This document shows, piece after piece, positions 19,444-64,000 of a stretch of DNA of 64,000 bases. The DNA lies in the NCBI GenBank assembly GCA_020851635.1, contig JADZCJ010000140.1:1-64000 (forward strand). Reading direction: 5' to 3'. The stretch is from Anaerolineae bacterium (lineage in GTDB: Bacteria > Chloroflexota > Anaerolineae > UBA4142 > SHND01). A program made the position numbers and the translations under genes. Within the stretch, counting starts at the first letter, position 1. Each line of letters starts with the position of its first letter. The notes under the pieces are model-generated. The model was not told where the DNA came from. It was given only the letters and a program-made list of their open reading frames with translations, and did no database searches.

Positions 19444-19580
19444 CGCTTTGGAATATGGATTTTGAAAGTTGAATTGCCATCCGGGTTTCGTTCGTGGCAA
19501 AAGTGCCCATATTATCGGTATTTTCATTCACCAAATGCACAGTCGGCAGCCGCGTTTGGAATTTTTGGAATTCCATCCGG

Positions 19581-55760: not shown

Positions 55761-56618
55761 TCAGCTGTTTGGCAAAACGTACCGATAGAGATTAGCCCGC
55801 TCGCGAGAACCGACGAGAAACCCACACGTGTAGCAATCGGGGCTTTGCTGATCTTCCCGCGCATTTACTTTCCCGCGCATCCCGTAATAGACCAGATGAC
55901 GTTTTGGCTCGCGAAGGTTCGTAGTCATCGCGAGAAATTCATTCAGCGCCAGGTTTGCAAGAACCCCGTTGAGTGAAACAACAGACGGAGCGGTCCCTCG
56001 ATGCCCGAGTCCATAGCCATGTTCCTTTCGCAGTTCTTGGATCTCAAGCGACTCGAGCTCCTGCTTGGCGACCTCCATGTCAATCTGGTGAGCGCAGTCC
56101 AAACAAAAATCGCCGGGGCGGGCAACGACAACACGCCCGCCAAATTCGGTAATTTGGTTTTCAGATTGTATGATTTCAGTTGCCGAGTCGATGAGCGTTA
56201 CTTCATAAGCAGCCGCAAGCTCCATCAAAACAAGTCGTGCGCCGTCGTAATCAACGCAGCCAAAAATGACGGGGCATTCTGTCAGTGCGTCGATGGCCTC
56301 GCGGGACCGCAGGTTCTTTGGTACCACACGGATTTGCGCCTCAGGGCTGATGGACCGGATCATTCGCTCCGTGACACGGACCTTTAGATCGTGGCTTTTT
56401 GCGTCTGTCGGGACACCGCCGATCAGGCGATTAAGATTCGTTTCCTCGACGCGGTCGTCGTCAACTAAAGTAAGTGTCCCGACGCCGAGGAACGCCAAAC
56501 CTTGTGCGATGTGCGACCCTATGCCGCCTAACCCGACAATGCCAACATGCGCCGCCCCTAGTTTGGCTTGCCCTTGCGTCCCGAACACCAGAATCTGGCG
56601 GTCAAATCGTTCACTCAT
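55761..56618 (-). CDS. E1-like adenylating enzyme of a ubiquitin-like system
   Basis: A 285-residue ThiF/E1 protein. The nucleotide loop is GLGGIGSH (G29-S35) and the acidic/Arg strand is LVDDDRVEETNLNRL. Zinc ligands CLDC (C172, C175) and CYTC (C262, C265) are intact. At the place where ThiF-like enzymes keep the catalytic cysteine, the segment is HRGTAPSVVSLNGVLANLAL, without Cys. It therefore looks able to adenylate a Ubl tail but may not form a thioester. It overlaps the JAB gene by eight bases. Confidence 0.9.
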   Translation of the reverse strand: MSERFDRQILVFGTQGQAKLGAAHVGIVGLGGIGSHIAQGLAFLGVGTLTLVDDDRVEETNLNRLIGGVPTDAKSHDLKVRVTERMIRSISPEAQIRVVPKNLRSREAIDALTECPVIFGCVDYDGARLVLMELAAAYEVTLIDSATEIIQSENQITEFGGRVVVARPGDFCLDCAHQIDMEVAKQELESLEIQELRKEHGYGLGHRGTAPSVVSLNGVLANLALNEFLAMTTNLREPKRHLVYYGMRGKVNAREDQQSPDCYTCGFLVGSRERANLYRYVLPNS

Positions 56619-57159
56619 TTCGGTTCACCTCCCATCGTGGACCGCTGGGCGCGAACCAGGAGCCCTTCGGAATTAGAATTTTGTCCTTGCCGTTGACCAC
56701 GAGAATACTCTGAACTCGTAATGCCTTACCAAAATCGTTATCCCAGACCACGGCATCTATCGAAGATTCCGCCCAGACCATCGCTGTGTATGGCTTTGAA
56801 CCAAGTTTCCATTTCGCATATACGGCGAATTCCGAAATGCCGTGGCGGTCGCTCGGCGAGAACCAGACCTTGTCGAATGAGCCAGGATGGGAATGGCAAT
56901 CTACGAGTGCCAGATTTTTCTGTTTAGCTTGGCTCATGATTTTGGCGCGTTCCTCATCCTTCATTTCGAGATGCACGTCCATCTGAACCTGCCACCCTTC
57001 CGCCGGCACCAAATACGCCTCTAACACCTCTAGAGTGGTTTCGTTAGTGTTCTCTCTAACACTTGCATATAGAAACGCACCTTGTTCCAGTTCATTCTGA
57101 AACAGGTGCGCGCGCACGAGTTGCTCTATCCGGGCAGGGATACTGATTATGTAAATCAT
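56611..57159 (-). CDS. JAB/MPN deubiquitinase-like protease
   Basis: A 182-residue protein with a complete JAMM site: E25, H89 and H91 (CHSHPGSF), S101 and D104 (FSPSD). It should cut after a Gly in the Ubl tail to mature or remove it. It overlaps the E2 gene by ATGA and the E1 gene by eight bases, so the four genes are translated as a unit. Confidence 0.88.
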   Translation of the reverse strand: MIYIISIPARIEQLVRAHLFQNELEQGAFLYASVRENTNETTLEVLEAYLVPAEGWQVQMDVHLEMKDEERAKIMSQAKQKNLALVDCHSHPGSFDKVWFSPSDRHGISEFAVYAKWKLGSKPYTAMVWAESSIDAVVWDNDFGKALRVQSILVVNGKDKILIPKGSWFAPSGPRWEVNRNE

Positions 57160-57596
57160 GTTGTCTCTTGTCCTTGAAGGCAGAGATTGACGCCGTGCAG
57201 AAAAGTGAGCAGGTTATCTCCAGCTTCAACTGTTGCTGCGGGACGCCACTCTGCGGGATGCCATGAAAACCATGCCCAGTCGCCAGCAATGGGCGCGGCA
57301 CCACTACTCGAATTCGACCCGATATTGAAACCGGATGGGTTTCCTCCATCGTGTAGTCTCAAGTCTACATCCACAAAAAAATTATCAATCCCGGTATTTG
57401 GATAGCCCGCCGGCAGGACAAAGAGGAGTTTAGTCCCTCCTTTATTAAAACGCCCTGCTGGCAGCTTGTATTTGGGAATGAGAACCCAACTGAGCTGCTC
57501 CCCATGTACAAGATTGGGATATTTGTTCTTGAGAAGCTCAATCTCTTGCCGCACTCTTTCGTACACGTCACATGCCTCGGCGATATTTCGGAGCAC
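57156..57596 (-). CDS. E2/UBC-like protein (prokaryotic family E type)
   Basis: A 146-residue UBC-fold-like protein. WVLIPKYKLPAGRFNKGGTK, FVLPAGYPNTGIDNFFVD and WAWFSWHPAEWRP follow the E2 strand pattern seen in multiubiquitin operons. Only two Cys exist, C9 and C139, and none lies in the usual position right after the HP turn, so the thioester site is not obvious; C139 in the last helix is the only reasonable candidate. The GTG start lies inside the Ubl gene. Confidence 0.7.
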   Translation of the reverse strand: MLRNIAEACDVYERVRQEIELLKNKYPNLVHGEQLSWVLIPKYKLPAGRFNKGGTKLLFVLPAGYPNTGIDNFFVDVDLRLHDGGNPSGFNIGSNSSSGAAPIAGDWAWFSWHPAEWRPAATVEAGDNLLTFLHGVNLCLQGQETT

Positions 57597-57831
57597 GACC
57601 GTGGCGATGACCGGGTTTAATCGTCACTATCTCATTTTCAGCAATGGTCCGCTCGGTCCCATCGGGCGCTTCCTCGACGATTTGCTGGTCGGAGGGAATA
57701 TTCCCAAGACGGCGAATTTCGGGGACGGTAATCGTTTCCCTGTTCCATGAGAACTCGTTGCCCTCGATATTGACAAAGAACTCCTTCCCTTCGACTTTTC
57801 CTTGTTCCTGCTGTAAAGTGATATTTGCCAT
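57568..57831 (-). CDS. Ubiquitin-like protein (multiubiquitin family)
   Basis: An 87-residue protein with a short charged N-terminal tail and one beta-grasp domain (EFFVNIEGNEFSWNRETITV, then EIVTIKPGHRHGRAPKY). The C-terminus is RRGM, with a single residue after the Gly. JAB trimming would expose a terminal Gly for adenylation by the E1. It heads the operon (AAGGAG before the ATG), followed by E2, JAB and E1 with overlaps. Related operons defend bacteria against phage; that role here is inferred. Confidence 0.82.
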   Translation of the reverse strand: MANITLQQEQGKVEGKEFFVNIEGNEFSWNRETITVPEIRRLGNIPSDQQIVEEAPDGTERTIAENEIVTIKPGHRHGRAPKYRRGM

Positions 57832-57934: not shown

Positions 57935-57991
57935 CTACCGAGTAGGATGGAATTTTCGCCACGATGGCAAAATTTGCATTCTCCTCGGTAG
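57935..57991. promoter_or_regulatory. Imperfect 26-bp inverted repeat in the divergent promoter
   Basis: The left arm begins CTACCGAG and the right arm ends CTCGGTAG; the arms are 26 bp with five mismatches around the loop ACGAT. It lies directly before the sigma-like gene, in the gap that also must hold the Ubl operon promoter. Probably an operator shared by both units or a leader hairpin. Confidence 0.6.
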
Positions 57992-58011
57992 ATTAAGTAG
58001 AGGTGATTTGT

Positions 58012-58665
58012 TTGGAGACCTTACCCATACGCAAAGATATCTATGACCGTCTTCAAGCGGCAGATTGGTCAGTAATCATTAAAAATCTTATGGCCTTCGC
58101 CATTTGGTTCGCGCGCAACAACTTTGGCTGGTGGGACCCCTCCTCAGACCAACTGCCGAAAGGCATGAAGTTTGAGGATATTGTCCAACTGGTTATCCTA
58201 AAAACCATTGACGGTCGCCGCCAATGGGATCCCGCAAAGGGTTCACTCGAACCATGGCTGAAAGACCAAATAAAAAGCGAGTTAGACGCGCTTTACAAAT
58301 CGGCGGCGCATTGGCGCGAGTCGCACTCGGTTGAGGTGGAGGAAGGAGGTGATGGTTCGGAAACTCTGCTTACGCGCCGAGGGCGCGCAGATGCCAGGGA
58401 TGTTCCACACGCACCAAGTGCAGAGGATGAAGTCATCGAGCGAGAGGAGGAAGCAATTGCGGCAAAGGTATTAGGGGCGATATATGAGAAAACTGCTGGG
58501 CAAGCGGAATTGGAAGACATGATATCCGCGATGATAGGCGGGTGTGAACCCAAACCGCAAGCTTTGGCAGATGCACTCGGCGTTGAAGTAACAGAAATCA
58601 ATAATAGACAAAAACGCTTGAAGCGTCGAGCAATGGAAGCGAGAAGGGAGTTGGAAAATGGATAA
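58012..58665 (+). CDS. Sigma-70-like transcription factor
   Basis: A ~217-residue protein with a sigma region 2-like part (MKFEDIVQLVILKTIDGRRQ, then WDPAKGSLEPWLKDQIKSEL) and a C-terminal region 4-like part (PQALADALGVEVTEINNRQK) that would be the HTH. GAGGTG six bases before TTG 58012 marks the start; a GTG nine bases upstream is an alternative. It is an unusual sigma on a mobile island and may direct transcription of the adjacent genes. Confidence 0.65.
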   Translation: METLPIRKDIYDRLQAADWSVIIKNLMAFAIWFARNNFGWWDPSSDQLPKGMKFEDIVQLVILKTIDGRRQWDPAKGSLEPWLKDQIKSELDALYKSAAHWRESHSVEVEEGGDGSETLLTRRGRADARDVPHAPSAEDEVIEREEEAIAAKVLGAIYEKTAGQAELEDMISAMIGGCEPKPQALADALGVEVTEINNRQKRLKRRAMEARRELENG

Positions 58666-59116
58666 GCGCAAAGCCCCAACCACGAACAAGGAACTCTTGG
58701 AAGCGCTTGATGAATTATTGCAACAACCGGAACCTAGAACCCCGGACGAAGTGAACGCAGTGCTGATTGAGGCAGGGTATGATCCTGAAGAGATCGTTGC
58801 AAAAATTAAAGCCGAAGTGGAGCGGGGACTAGAAGAGTCCCCGCTTAATTGGAGGAATCGAAACCGTGAGCTTGAGACAGAGAAAAAACAGCTTGCGAAC
58901 TTTGTGCCTGATGCCAATCAACCACGCAAAAAATTGCTGGAAGCCATTGAAGCTGCGCTGAGAAATCTGGCTTTAAAAAACCCGCAGCTCGCCATGGTAC
59001 ATCATCGCAATTTCGAAAGTGCAACCGACGAGGATTTAGCGAGTTTGCTTGCCGATATCTATTATCTTGGTGCCTCAGAGGACAACTCGAAAGGTAATAT
59101 TACCAACGAAGAATGA
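58658..59116 (+). CDS. Small acidic protein, possible antitoxin/anti-sigma partner
   Basis: A 152-residue acidic, helical protein overlapping the sigma gene by eight bases and the protease gene by ATGA. The first half is Glu-rich (LEALDELLQQPEPRTPDEVN). No family recognised. Position between a sigma-like factor and an ImmA/IrrE protease suggests it is an inhibitor that the protease cleaves, an inference only. Confidence 0.55.
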   Translation: MDKRKAPTTNKELLEALDELLQQPEPRTPDEVNAVLIEAGYDPEEIVAKIKAEVERGLEESPLNWRNRNRELETEKKQLANFVPDANQPRKKLLEAIEAALRNLALKNPQLAMVHHRNFESATDEDLASLLADIYYLGASEDNSKGNITNEE

Positions 59117-59925
59117 GTCAACCCAACTATTACGCAAACAACCTGCTTGACAAACTGAAAATCAAGAGCGTCAAAGATTTGCAGCTCCTTGAACTGATTG
59201 CGCGTGAACGCGGCGCGCTCGTTCAGGACAAACCGTTGCAAGGGGCAGAAGCACGCATTGCCATCGCTGGGCGGAGAGCAATTATTACAGTCTCTACCTT
59301 GATCACGGACCCTCGCCGCAGACGGTTCAGCATTGCGCACGAGCTCGGTCATTTTGAAATGCACCGCAGTCATGGCAATCTCGCTTTGTGCACAGCGGCG
59401 GATTTGGAAGACTGGAGCGCAAAACGAGCCGGGGCCGCGCGCGAGCAAGAAGCCAATCAGTTTGCCGCAGCCCTACTTTTACCCGAACGTTTTTTTGCAG
59501 TACGCTGTAGGAACCAAGAGCCGTCGCTAGATTTCATTGCCGGTTTGGCAGACGCATTTAGCGTTTCACTCACCGCAACCGCAATGCGCTTTATGCAATT
59601 TACCAATGAGCCGTGTGCCATCGTCTTTTCCAAGGACGGCGTTCTCAAGTGGTTCCATGAGAGCAAGGGGTTCAAGGACTTGGGACTCTTTGTCGAAGTA
59701 CACAGCAAGCCCGACCCCGCGACACTTGCCGCTGCGCTCTGGGAAGGACGCTCCACCTCCAAAAGACCGAGACGGGTTCAGGCAAGTACATGGTTTGCGG
59801 CGGGAAACTGGAACAAAGATGCCACGATTGTCGAACAATCGTGGATTTTTTCTGAATATGGCAGTATGTTGACGCTCTTGTGGGTGGATGACGACATAGA
59901 GGATTTCGATGTGGACGATGAGTAA
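59113..59925 (+). CDS. ImmA/IrrE-family metalloprotease
   Basis: A 270-residue protein with RRRFSIAHELGHFEMHR (H76, E77, H80), the zincin motif of ImmA/IrrE, and an EEANQFAAALLLPE-type helix (REQEANQFAAALLLPERFFA), which supplies the third ligand. The C-terminal ~130 residues are a GAF-like or sensor part, as in IrrE. It probably cleaves a repressor encoded nearby, here the small protein or the sigma-like factor. Confidence 0.85.
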   Translation: MSQPNYYANNLLDKLKIKSVKDLQLLELIARERGALVQDKPLQGAEARIAIAGRRAIITVSTLITDPRRRRFSIAHELGHFEMHRSHGNLALCTAADLEDWSAKRAGAAREQEANQFAAALLLPERFFAVRCRNQEPSLDFIAGLADAFSVSLTATAMRFMQFTNEPCAIVFSKDGVLKWFHESKGFKDLGLFVEVHSKPDPATLAAALWEGRSTSKRPRRVQASTWFAAGNWNKDATIVEQSWIFSEYGSMLTLLWVDDDIEDFDVDDE

Positions 59926-59976: not shown

Positions 59977-60013
59977 CGCGCGCTAGAACACATGTTTGAC
60001 ATTGGAGACTCGG

Positions 60014-61552
60014 ATGGCTGAACCCCGTATCCTCGATTTGCCCGCCCTCGAAAATTGGCTCTGGGAAGCCGCGTGCGTGATTCGCGGTCCCATTGACGCG
60101 CCCAAGTTCAAAGACTATATCCTTCCTTTGCTTTTCCTCAAGCGCCTGTCCGATGTGTTTGAAGATGAAGTAAACGAGTTGGGCGAAGTGGCCCGTTTTG
60201 TGGAGGAGGATCACACGCTTGTCCGTTTCTATATCCCGCCGAATGCGCGCTGGGACAAGATTCAGCGCCGGACGACGGAACTGGGCGATTTTTTGACCGA
60301 CGCCGTTCGGGCGGTCGCGCGAGAAAATCCGAAACTGCAAGGCGTGATTGATAGTATTGATTACAACGTGACCGCGGCGGGTCAGCGGACTTTGAGCGAC
60401 GAACAGTTACGCGCGCTGGTGCAGGTATTGTCGCGGCATCGCTTGGGACTGAGGGATGCGAGTCCGACACTGTTTGGGCAGGCGTACGAGTATCTACTCC
60501 GCAAATTTGCCGAAGGGCAGGGTTCCAGCGCGGGCGAGTTTTTCACCCCGCCCGAAGTCGCGGTATTAATGGCGTATATTCTCGATCCCGAACCCGGCGA
60601 TACAGTCTATGATCCTGCCTGTGGTTCCGGTGGACTCTTGGTCAAGACCCATTTGCGATTCCAGGAAAAATATAAGGATACGCCGCGCGTGTCCCCCTTG
60701 AAATATTTTGGTCAAGAGATCAATCCGACGACGTTCGCCCTCGCTCGGATGGATGTTTTCATCTATGACATGGAAGCGGAGGTTGCGCTTGGCGACACGA
60801 TGAATCGTCCTGCGTTTTTGAATCATGATGGTTCGCTGCGCGCGTTCGCCAAAGTGACGGCGAATCCGATGTGGAACCAAAAATTCTCTGCTTTAGTCTA
60901 TGAACACGACACGTATAATCGGATGGTCATGGGCATCCCGCCTTCCTCATCCGCTGATTGGGGTTGGATTCAACACATGCATGCGTCACTCAACGAACGC
61001 GGCAAGATGGCAGTGGTGTTGGACACGGGCGCGGCATCGCGGGGCAGCGGCAATCAGGGTTCAAATCGTGAGCGTGATATTCGTAAAGCGTTCGTCGAGC
61101 GCGATTTGGTCGAAGCAGTGATTCTGCTGCCCGAAAATCTCTTTTACAACACCTCTGCGCCAGGCATCATTCTCGTCGTCAATAAGCGCAAAAAGGAACC
61201 ATCCAAGATTCTGCTCATCAATGCCTCCAAGGAATTTTTGAAAGGGCGACCGAAGAATTATTTGACGCAGGATAATATTGCGCGCATCGCCGATGCGTAT
61301 TTGAATTGGCGCGAGATTGAGGGCTTGTCAAAAATCATTTCGAACGATGAGGCAGCGCGCAATGATTTCAACTTGTCGCCATCGCGCTATGTGGCGAGCG
61401 ACAGCCAGGAAGAGGTGCTGCCCGTGGAAGAAGCGTTGGTCTTATTGGCGGAAGCGGAAGAGGAACGCGCGGCGGCGGATGTGGAGCTGGATGCGGTTTT
61501 AGGGCAACTGGGATTCAGAGATTGGCGAACCAACGGAGGAACCAAGTTGTAA
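60014..61552 (+). CDS. hsdM: Type I restriction-modification DNA methyltransferase subunit
   Basis: The 512-residue subunit methylates adenine in the HsdM2-HsdS complex. SAM motif YDPACGSGGLLVK is at about 199-211, and the catalytic motif is ANPMWN (N284), a variant of NPPF that occurs in this family. The N-terminal helical domain (LENWLWEAACVIRGPIDAPK) and RQ-rich FFTPPEVA segment fit HsdM. The ATG at 60014 has GGAG; the listed TTG upstream is less likely. Confidence 0.92.
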   Translation: MAEPRILDLPALENWLWEAACVIRGPIDAPKFKDYILPLLFLKRLSDVFEDEVNELGEVARFVEEDHTLVRFYIPPNARWDKIQRRTTELGDFLTDAVRAVARENPKLQGVIDSIDYNVTAAGQRTLSDEQLRALVQVLSRHRLGLRDASPTLFGQAYEYLLRKFAEGQGSSAGEFFTPPEVAVLMAYILDPEPGDTVYDPACGSGGLLVKTHLRFQEKYKDTPRVSPLKYFGQEINPTTFALARMDVFIYDMEAEVALGDTMNRPAFLNHDGSLRAFAKVTANPMWNQKFSALVYEHDTYNRMVMGIPPSSSADWGWIQHMHASLNERGKMAVVLDTGAASRGSGNQGSNRERDIRKAFVERDLVEAVILLPENLFYNTSAPGIILVVNKRKKEPSKILLINASKEFLKGRPKNYLTQDNIARIADAYLNWREIEGLSKIISNDEAARNDFNLSPSRYVASDSQEEVLPVEEALVLLAEAEEERAAADVELDAVLGQLGFRDWRTNGGTKL

Positions 61553-62925
61553 TGGTGCACGTGGGAGATTCTATTATGATAGATGAGACCGAAAATAATG
61601 ATGGGCATGGTGGGAATCAAGTCCCCAATTCATCTGCGTCAACAAGCAGAAACGATCAAGTCTTGAAACGGCTCTTGGACGAGATCCGAACAGGGGTACC
61701 TGCTATCAACGCGCTCGATGGGATCAAGAGCATTCCTTTGATTCAACCTGAATTGAGCAGTCACATGGCGGAAATTATTGATCGAGCGGGTGCCGCAACA
61801 GCAATGATGCAGGCATTCGACAGACCCGCGCAAGACGCGCTCGCACGACTGGCGACAAGTGTCAAGATGCCCGAAATCATTTTCCCTGATGTGGAGTCAA
61901 GCAAACGCCTTCTACTTCAATCAGACGCACTGCGTGAAGCCGTCTCACGTGCATTGGAGGGAATCAATACCTCAGCCAGTCTTCAGGGAATGCTCGCGGC
62001 TGGGATAGGTGAGCTGGTCAAGGCGAATCTTGTCATCGAAAATCCCCTGCGCGATTACGCGCAGAAGATAGAGGAAAGTCTATCGCTTCAAAAAACAGAG
62101 CTCCAAGCGCACCTCGCTTCAGCATTCGATTCGCGCAAACTGTTGGAGAATGTTTTCCAAACGTTGAATCCCGCGGTTGAAGCAATGCGCCAGATGGCAG
62201 CGGAGCAGGAGACTATGCTTGCCCGGGCAATGGAGCCATTGCGGCAATATTTTCGACAAGAGAAAGAAGCTGCTGAAGCATTCCTATACGCGGGATTTTG
62301 CATGGCGCCCTCCATGAACAGCGCATTAGTGGAGCGCGTCAAAACTCTGCACGCCCAAAAAAAGAAGAATCTAATTGCGCAGACCATCATGCGCTACTAC
62401 AAGAGTAGAAATTATGCGCGGCTCAAGGGGATGGTTTCGGGATGGGAAACGAATCCTCTGTTCGCGCCTCGAATGGCCACTATCCATGACGCGTTTGATG
62501 CTCACCTCGATCGGCGGTTCACACTCTCAATTCCTGTGTTATTGATGCAAATTGATGGAGTTGTCGGCGACTTTGCGCGACATTACCAAATCGAAACGAA
62601 TTTGGCCAAGAAGCAAATGTTTACAGATACATTGGACAGCATCCCATCTGATTGGATGCGACTTGGCGTCCATGAAAGCGTGAGCAGGTTTGTGGATGCA
62701 ACACTTTATGCTTGGAAGGATTTCAAGAGACTCCCATTGCGTAACAAGGAACGCATCAACCGCCATTTAGTGTTGCATGGGCGTCAAGTGAATTACGCCA
62801 ACGAGCGCAATTCTCTGCGCTTGTTTCTGCTACTTGATGCCTTTTCTGCTCTGAGGATCGAGCCACAGGCGAATCTAAAGCTGCGTCGCAGGAAGTCTGT
62901 TTCTAGCAAGCCAAAACCGAAATAA
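61552..62925 (+). CDS. Putative HEPN-like protein inserted between hsdM and hsdS
   Basis: A 457-residue helical protein with a HEPN-type signature at its C-terminus: R404 and H409 in RINRHLVLHGRQVNYANERN (Rx4H), followed by SLRLFLLLDAF, as in Abi-like RNase domains. The rest is long amphipathic helices. The ATG overlaps the hsdM stop (TAATG). A growth-arresting RNase tied to the RM system is an inference; a structural role is also possible. Confidence 0.6.
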   Translation: MVHVGDSIMIDETENNDGHGGNQVPNSSASTSRNDQVLKRLLDEIRTGVPAINALDGIKSIPLIQPELSSHMAEIIDRAGAATAMMQAFDRPAQDALARLATSVKMPEIIFPDVESSKRLLLQSDALREAVSRALEGINTSASLQGMLAAGIGELVKANLVIENPLRDYAQKIEESLSLQKTELQAHLASAFDSRKLLENVFQTLNPAVEAMRQMAAEQETMLARAMEPLRQYFRQEKEAAEAFLYAGFCMAPSMNSALVERVKTLHAQKKKNLIAQTIMRYYKSRNYARLKGMVSGWETNPLFAPRMATIHDAFDAHLDRRFTLSIPVLLMQIDGVVGDFARHYQIETNLAKKQMFTDTLDSIPSDWMRLGVHESVSRFVDATLYAWKDFKRLPLRNKERINRHLVLHGRQVNYANERNSLRLFLLLDAFSALRIEPQANLKLRRRKSVSSKPKPK

Positions 62926-62984
62926 CAATTAACCACACTGTTCGATGAATTCGCGATCAATGAAACGGTTGCTTTGTCAAAGAT

Positions 62985-64000
62985 ATGACGGAATTTAGAG
63001 ACACCGAATTCGGCGCGCTGCCCGCAGACTGGGAAGTCGAAACTATCGCAAACATAATAAAGCGCTCAAGCGGTTCGGTTCAAACAGGACCGTTTGGTAG
63101 TTTGTTGCATGCGTCTGATTACGTTCCAGATGGCATTCCATTCATCATGCCAAAAGATTTGAGCGCGTCGGGAGAAATTATCACTGACAGCGTTGCGCGG
63201 ATTGGTAAGAAGGATTACGAGCGACTTGCACGCTACCATCTCCAAGAAGGAGATTTACTTGTCGGGCGTCGTGGCGAAATGGGGCGGCGAGGACTTGTTA
63301 CATCAACAGAATCTGGGTGGGTGTGTGGCAGCGGCTGCTTGAGAATCCGCGCAGGAGCTTTGATTGATCCCGACTTTTTCTCCTTTGCTTTTGAAACACC
63401 AATTGTTCGCGAGTGGCTTGAGGCAAATGCAATCGGGACAACGATGAAGAATCTTAGCGCAGAGATTGTATCAAGATTGCCTGTGATTCTTCCGCCGGTC
63501 CCCGAACAGCGCGCTATCGCCCGCATCCTCTCCAACATTCAGCGCGCGATTGAAAAACAAGACAACCTCATCGCCGCCGCGCGTGAATTGAAAAAATCGC
63601 TGATGCGGAAGTTGTTCATGCACGGTCTGGACGCAAATGCCGCGGTAAAAGAGACAGAGATTGGGGTGATGCCGGAGCATTGGCAGCTAGGGAGATTAGA
63701 TGCAGTTGCGAAAGTTGAACGCGGAAAGTTTGACCATCGTCCACGTAATTCACCCGAGTTCTATGGCGGGACAGTTCCATTTATACAGACTGGTGATGTT
63801 TCCCGTTCAAATGGTCGCATCAGGAAGTACTCCCAGACTTTGAATGACAAGGGTTTGTCTATAAGCCGTCTCTTTCCGAAAGGAACAATTGCCTTAACAA
63901 TCGCGGCAAATATCGGAGATTGCGGAATTTTGGAGTTCGATAGTGCTTTCCCTGATAGTTTGGTGGGCATAACGCCCCTAGATTCAATGAATGTCTATTT
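62985..64000 (+). CDS. hsdS: Type I restriction-modification specificity subunit (partial)
   Basis: The frame is open from ATG 62985 to the window end (338 codons). It has two target recognition regions. The first starts MTEFRDTEFGALPADWEV; the conserved coil PVPEQRAIARILSNIQRAIE lies between them, and the second opens with TEIGVMPEHWQLGRLDAVAK. TRDs choose the two halves of the recognition site. The 3' end and hsdR are outside the window. There is no strong ribosome site. Confidence 0.92.
   Translation, partial: MTEFRDTEFGALPADWEVETIANIIKRSSGSVQTGPFGSLLHASDYVPDGIPFIMPKDLSASGEIITDSVARIGKKDYERLARYHLQEGDLLVGRRGEMGRRGLVTSTESGWVCGSGCLRIRAGALIDPDFFSFAFETPIVREWLEANAIGTTMKNLSAEIVSRLPVILPPVPEQRAIARILSNIQRAIEKQDNLIAAARELKKSLMRKLFMHGLDANAAVKETEIGVMPEHWQLGRLDAVAKVERGKFDHRPRNSPEFYGGTVPFIQTGDVSRSNGRIRKYSQTLNDKGLSISRLFPKGTIALTIAANIGDCGILEFDSAFPDSLVGITPLDSMNVY

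Follow-up and report, generated by a model that had tools for sequence, protein, structure and literature searches.

The window considered here is a 64,000-nucleotide stretch from an Anaerolineae bacterium (contig JADZCJ010000140.1). Four genes on its minus strand, coding for a ubiquitin-like protein (Ubl), an E2-like protein, a JAB/JAMM protease and an E1, diverge from three genes on the plus strand, and a palindrome lies between the two groups (Table 1). An original prediction, made from the sequence alone, had described the first four as overlapping genes of one operon; the genes do overlap and match their families, with the Ubl, JAB and E1 genes placed as predicted and the start of the E2 corrected.

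Table 1. Features of the divergent locus, with positions in the window.
Feature	Position	Strand	Supporting match or property
E1/ThiF adenylating enzyme, BubD-like, 285 aa	55761-56618	minus	Pfam ThiF 127.6 bits; BubCD E 1.4e-26
JAB/JAMM metalloprotease, BubC-like, own gene	56611-57159	minus	JAMM residues and BubCD profile match
E2-like protein, BubB-like, 136 aa from GTG 57566	57156-57566	minus	Prok-E2_E; BubB fold
Ubl, BubA-like, 87 aa, tail ...KYRRG-M	57568-57831	minus	Multi_ubiq; PDB 9d59
Imperfect palindrome, 57 nt, between divergent operons	57935-57991	both	22/27 paired
Sigma70/ECF-like protein, region 2 and region 4 parts	58003-58665	plus	Sigma70_r2 22.6 bits
152-aa "RNFE" protein, matching no known family	58658-59116	plus	Homologues beside Bub operons
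CapP-type ImmA/IrrE metallopeptidase, HELGH motif	59113-59925	plus	PADLOC capP 9.8e-61; Peptidase_M78 64.3 bits

The best PDB match of the E1 is BubCD of Citrobacter, which is also the best match of the JAB profile (4.4e-10). The E2 profile finds Citrobacter BubB first (2.8e-11), and the Ubl matches the multi-ubiquitin protein 9d59 (E 0.0014). In Pfam, the E2 scores about 47.5-47.8 bits against Prok-E2_E (PF14462, cut-off 25), the Ubl 24.1 bits against Multi_ubiq, slightly below the cut-off of 24.5, and the JAB protein 17.4 bits against Prok-JAB, below its cut-off; PADLOC and NCBIfam give no match for the Ubl, the E2 or the JAB protein. A profile and structure comparison, which the original prediction had proposed, places the E2 with BubB above any eukaryotic E2: a model built from 19 relatives (pLDDT 91.1) fits BubB (9eae_C) with a Z of 14.1, compared with about 10 for eukaryotic E2s. 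The operon is assigned to Bub on the basis of the PDB matches of E1, E2 and JAB and of this fit. Judged by its sequence, the four-gene set, with JAB and E1 encoded separately, forms a Bub (bacterial ubiquitination-like) operon: it has a multi-ubiquitin-type Ubl ending in a C-terminal Gly, a BubB/Prok-E2_E E2, and a ThiF-type E1 adjoining a JAMM gene. Dozens of unrelated genomes and plasmids contain the same set, and the operon is ordinary within its family.

Bub operons encode a Ubl, an E1, an E2 and a protease (PMC12687455). The name Bub came after the listing of operon type 6e, whose E2 domain lacks the cysteine (Iyer et al., 2006, PMC1779556; PMC13373217; PMC12687455). Like the window, type 6e combines a multi-Ubl protein, an E2-like domain without Cys and a JAB domain adjoining or fused to a ThiF-type E1 (PMC1779556), but the window shows no CxxxC...HxxC (DUF6527-type) gene. 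Extra genes for an APH-like phosphotransferase and a DUF6527 protein follow the E1 in L019, L021, L022 and L023 (Alphaproteobacteria, Deinococcus), and both are absent from the window. The Bub system of Citrobacter (BubCD 9ea4/9ea5/9ea8/9eae/9eav; BubB 9eae_C, 9eav_D) has the same E1 and JAB families and the same E2 fold as the window. By contrast, its JAB and E1 are fused as BubCD, the stretch of BubCD matched by the E1 is without the first CxxC pair, and the window's Ubl is a single domain.

The window falls into a clade with separate JAB and E1 genes (support 0.74), where its sister is L043 (60% E1 identity, support 0.997); L045, from Verrucomicrobia, is another close relative. The contig of L043 was assigned to an Aenigmatarchaeota MAG, reflecting either horizontal transfer or a binning error, and the E1 of L045 (L045:4935-5788) seems split over two frames by a frameshift or sequencing error. 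Other relatives occur in Dormibacterota, Gamma- and Alphaproteobacteria, a Desulfuromonadaceae MAG and one IMG/VR contig. A search of the genome contigs with the E2 alone gives no match. The occurrence of the Bub operon is sporadic, which suggests horizontal spread: of 400 genomes belonging to the phylum, 11 contain a match to the E2 profile, and five congeners yielded no copy of the window's own E2.

The Ubl ends in RRGM, as had been noted, and by its sequence JAB trimming of one residue would expose Gly, the tail being RRG plus one Met (Gly86, codon 57574-57576; Met87, 57571-57573). The terminal Arg-Gly is invariant in all 13 aligned Ubls, among which the extra Met belongs to the window's alone. 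Stand-alone Ubl relatives of the same clade nearly all end exactly at RG, and one extra Ala is found in L060. In L048, L050 and L053 the Ubl and E2 are fused, the sequence passing through RG-F directly into the E2 domain, and trimming would be needed to release the Ubl. The JAMM residues of the JAB protein (E25, H89, H91, S101, D104) are intact and invariant (15/15), and together with the invariant RG end they make trimming after Gly the expected first step.

The E1 had been predicted to be without a Cys in the usual catalytic place, and none is present in the 86 residues between its CxxC pairs, a feature of 22 of the 25 Bub E1s, window included. Four of its six cysteines form these pairs, which are conserved and of zinc type (172, 175, 262, 265; kept in 24 or 25 of 25); all four are retained in the window, unlike in the matched part of Citrobacter BubCD. 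The ATP-site residues GxGGxG, D53, D55, R64, K79 and D123 are kept in 23-25 of 25, C115 occurs in 8/25 and C121 in 18/25. The frequency of C121, and its presence in Citrobacter BubCD, would favor an E1 thioester on this residue, followed by transfer. This route is nevertheless very unlikely: Ala, Ser or Gly is found instead in 7/25, and C121 adjoins the conserved Asp123 in a C-x-D motif that lies outside the crossover loop. A Cys at the C-x-D position is common in MoeB-type enzymes. A ThiF/MoeB-type E1 without a loop Cys would also be consistent with a ThiS/MoaD-like sulfur carrier, for which the E1 makes a thiocarboxylate and proteins are not conjugated. Such a function is just as improbable, as a dedicated E2 and JAB go with the E1 in the relatives examined, the operon is without a rhodanese or sulfurtransferase, and its nearest relatives are Bub and not ThiF/MoeB.

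The E2 begins at GTG 57566, as placed by the Ubl/E2 junction of the window (CGAGGCATGTGACGTGTACG) compared with those of its two closest relatives, L045 (CGAGGCTAGCGATGCACC) and L043 (CGAGGGTAGAGTGCACG); the open reading frame as listed (57156-57596) starts too early. The original prediction had counted C9 and C139 as the only cysteines of this protein. With the revised start C9 is not part of the E2, and C139 becomes C129, its sole Cys. A thioester relay through C129 would draw on its retention in L043 and L045. However, it is common to these two alone (3/45 E2s with the window's, absent from 42/45), and in the E2 model it sits 28 residues past the catalytic column, within the last helix (119-130). 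So narrow a distribution makes a catalytic role of C129 unlikely, and the relay is scarcely credible. The case that was to overturn the original prediction, in which C139 proves to be a hidden catalytic Cys, thus fails, the catalytic column being occupied by Ser.

This residue, Ser101 (codon 57264-57266), holds the place of the E2 cysteine, and the UBC-type catalytic Cys, of the kind found in Bil, Cap2 and eukaryotic UBC proteins, is absent. Over 45 E2s, which take in related sequences and do not represent independent events, the column contains Ser in 38, Cys in 6 and Tyr in 1. Five of the Cys-type E2s form one clade (0.986), and the sixth, L042, stands apart. These Prok-E2_E proteins (L037-L042) show a W-Y-C motif with Cys for Ser at the nucleophile column, and in the E1 of five of the six loci Ala replaces C121. 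The Tyr belongs to a Crossiella relative (L059:4076-4465; WYYLE). In a global profile alignment (hhalign) of low score, with a probability of about 4%, Ser101 pairs with Cys85 of UBE2D2 and the following W-x-P is aligned; the eukaryotic E2 sequences used were UBE2D2, UBE2L3 and UBE2N, the last of which was verified. A profile of the Cys-type E2s gives PDB alignments that stop short of the catalytic region. Citrobacter BubB has a Ser near the nucleophile column in a W-S-R-H motif, from which this Ser was taken, since the HMMER alignment near the active site is at least one residue off the motif-based register. The E2 motif of L087 is likewise W-S-R-H.

Ser101 could be structural. The E2 of a Bub operon would then be a non-catalytic, RWD-like scaffold, and the E1 adenylate would react directly with the target amine. 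The absence of a loop Cys from the E1 is in keeping with this, and the domain has been called catalytically inactive, as it is without Cys (Iyer et al., 2006, PMC1779556). Against it, six relatives, among them the clade L037-L041, have Cys in this column, and nearly all the others have Ser; so clean a swap is not expected of a structural Ser. The conserved Ser/Cys column thus challenges the type 6e view of an inactive E2, and a scaffold role is rather unlikely.

Without the usual catalytic cysteines in E1 and E2, a normal thioester relay is unlikely. That the system differs from all those known from bacteria is not supported, as the operon belongs to the described Bub kind. A system that only adenylates, also suggested originally, is possible, but the invariant JAMM site and the conserved E2 Ser/Cys column speak against it. 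We consider it probable that this Bub operon serves conjugation from the E1 adenylate through an oxyester on E2 Ser101 to an amine, under the control of the sigma-like, RNFE and CapP-type proteins. The chemical steps that we infer would begin with the JAMM protease cutting off Met87 and exposing the RRG tail, after which the E1 would adenylate Gly86 with ATP. Having no loop Cys, the E1 would transfer the adenylated Ubl to Ser101, where it would form an oxyester, and the E2 would move it onto an amine of a putative target; the JAMM protease may be able to undo the conjugation. Expression would be governed by the divergent module, with DNA damage as the probable trigger. Bub conjugation is reported to be cysteine-independent in the primary Bub paper, a point that is given no weight as evidence here.

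Bil (BilABCD) and CBASS Cap2/Cap3 are Cys-thioester systems. They share with the window an E1, an E2, a JAMM protease and a modified target, which in the window would be a presumed one; they differ from it in that the window is without Cys in the E2 column and the E1 loop (for the Bil and Cap2 systems, see citations in PMC12687455). A defence role of Bub is not demonstrated according to PMC13373217, and any such role of the present operon would be a presumption.

Many Bub operons carry DNA-damage regulators (PMC13373217). As in the CapH and CapP pair described there, a CapP-type peptidase gene of the window diverges from the Bub operon, and a classical HTH CapH with CapP occupies the position of the window's trio in L043 and L046. 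Unlike these, the window is without CapH and has the sigma-like and RNFE proteins in its place. The Bub regulators that PMC13373217 lists do not include this trio, which is probably an undescribed regulatory module. Four of four sigma-like homologues match TIGR02937, with a best E of 2.6e-6 that is below its cut-off; a PDB profile search with their alignment found no sigma factor, and a single-sequence model is poor (pLDDT 51.5). The RNFE protein is a candidate anti-sigma factor or peptidase substrate. In two overlapping samples of about 300 genomes each (class and phylum), its homologues adjoin Bub operons only, one weak fragment aside; a match in an 839-aa frame of G221 (E 4.5e-4) was dismissed. 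No RNFE relatives were found in viral contigs, and plasmids gave no close relative of the sigma-like or RNFE protein.

The trio adjoins Bub operons in Chloroflexota, Bacteroidota and Alphaproteobacteria. Within Chloroflexota it flanks those of L030, L031 and L033, and the sigma-like proteins there share only about 38% identity with that of the window. In Pontibacter L087 it is recognized by gene order and profile (hhalign about 95%). In Paracoccus L085 and Celeribacter L088 the hhalign values are weak (19-33%), and the case rests on gene order, size, CapP and the RNFE motif. In the E1 tree the operons that carry the trio are not grouped in a single clade, so that operons appear to exchange the module. 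A Spirosoma plasmid (L086:1853-3815) has the trio near an exonuclease gene and without a Bub operon. In the window, type I restriction-modification genes (59996-63998) are located downstream of the CapP-type gene, with HsdM at 59996-61552, an HsdS-like gene from 62985 and a 467-aa unknown protein between them.

The palindrome is not equaled in any of 300 shuffles, and consists of two half-sites, TGRCNAAW-N13-CGGTA, at 57936-57961 (minus) and 57965-57990 (plus). The same back-to-back arrangement on both strands is found in L030, L031 and L033. Since these three are close relatives, they amount to roughly one independent case, and the pattern itself was derived from them and the window. It has four matches in the whole 5.8 Mb genome, two of them here, and its reversed control has one. 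A match at 19495 of the window is taken as chance, because no gene follows it on its strand. A search next to the trio in L085-L088 did not find the pattern. Its geometry in the window would suit either a dimer-binding operator or a pair of divergent promoters read by a single sigma factor. A tentative possibility is an undescribed class of controller, in which DNA damage would activate the CapP-type peptidase to degrade the RNFE protein, an anti-sigma factor in this reading; the dedicated sigma factor thereby freed would fire both operons from a symmetric divergent promoter, switching on serine-based ubiquitin-like conjugation.

A puzzling, Cys-poor operon is now placed in the known Bub pathway. 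Because the Bub E2 column is mostly Ser and in a few cases Cys, one substitution, made in either direction, would be enough to test oxyester against thioester chemistry. What is new here is the divergent sigma-like, RNFE and CapP trio, together with the palindrome of the Chloroflexota cases. The trio is a conserved regulatory module beside Bub operons, and in Chloroflexota it comes with a compact, symmetric control site that is open to direct testing.
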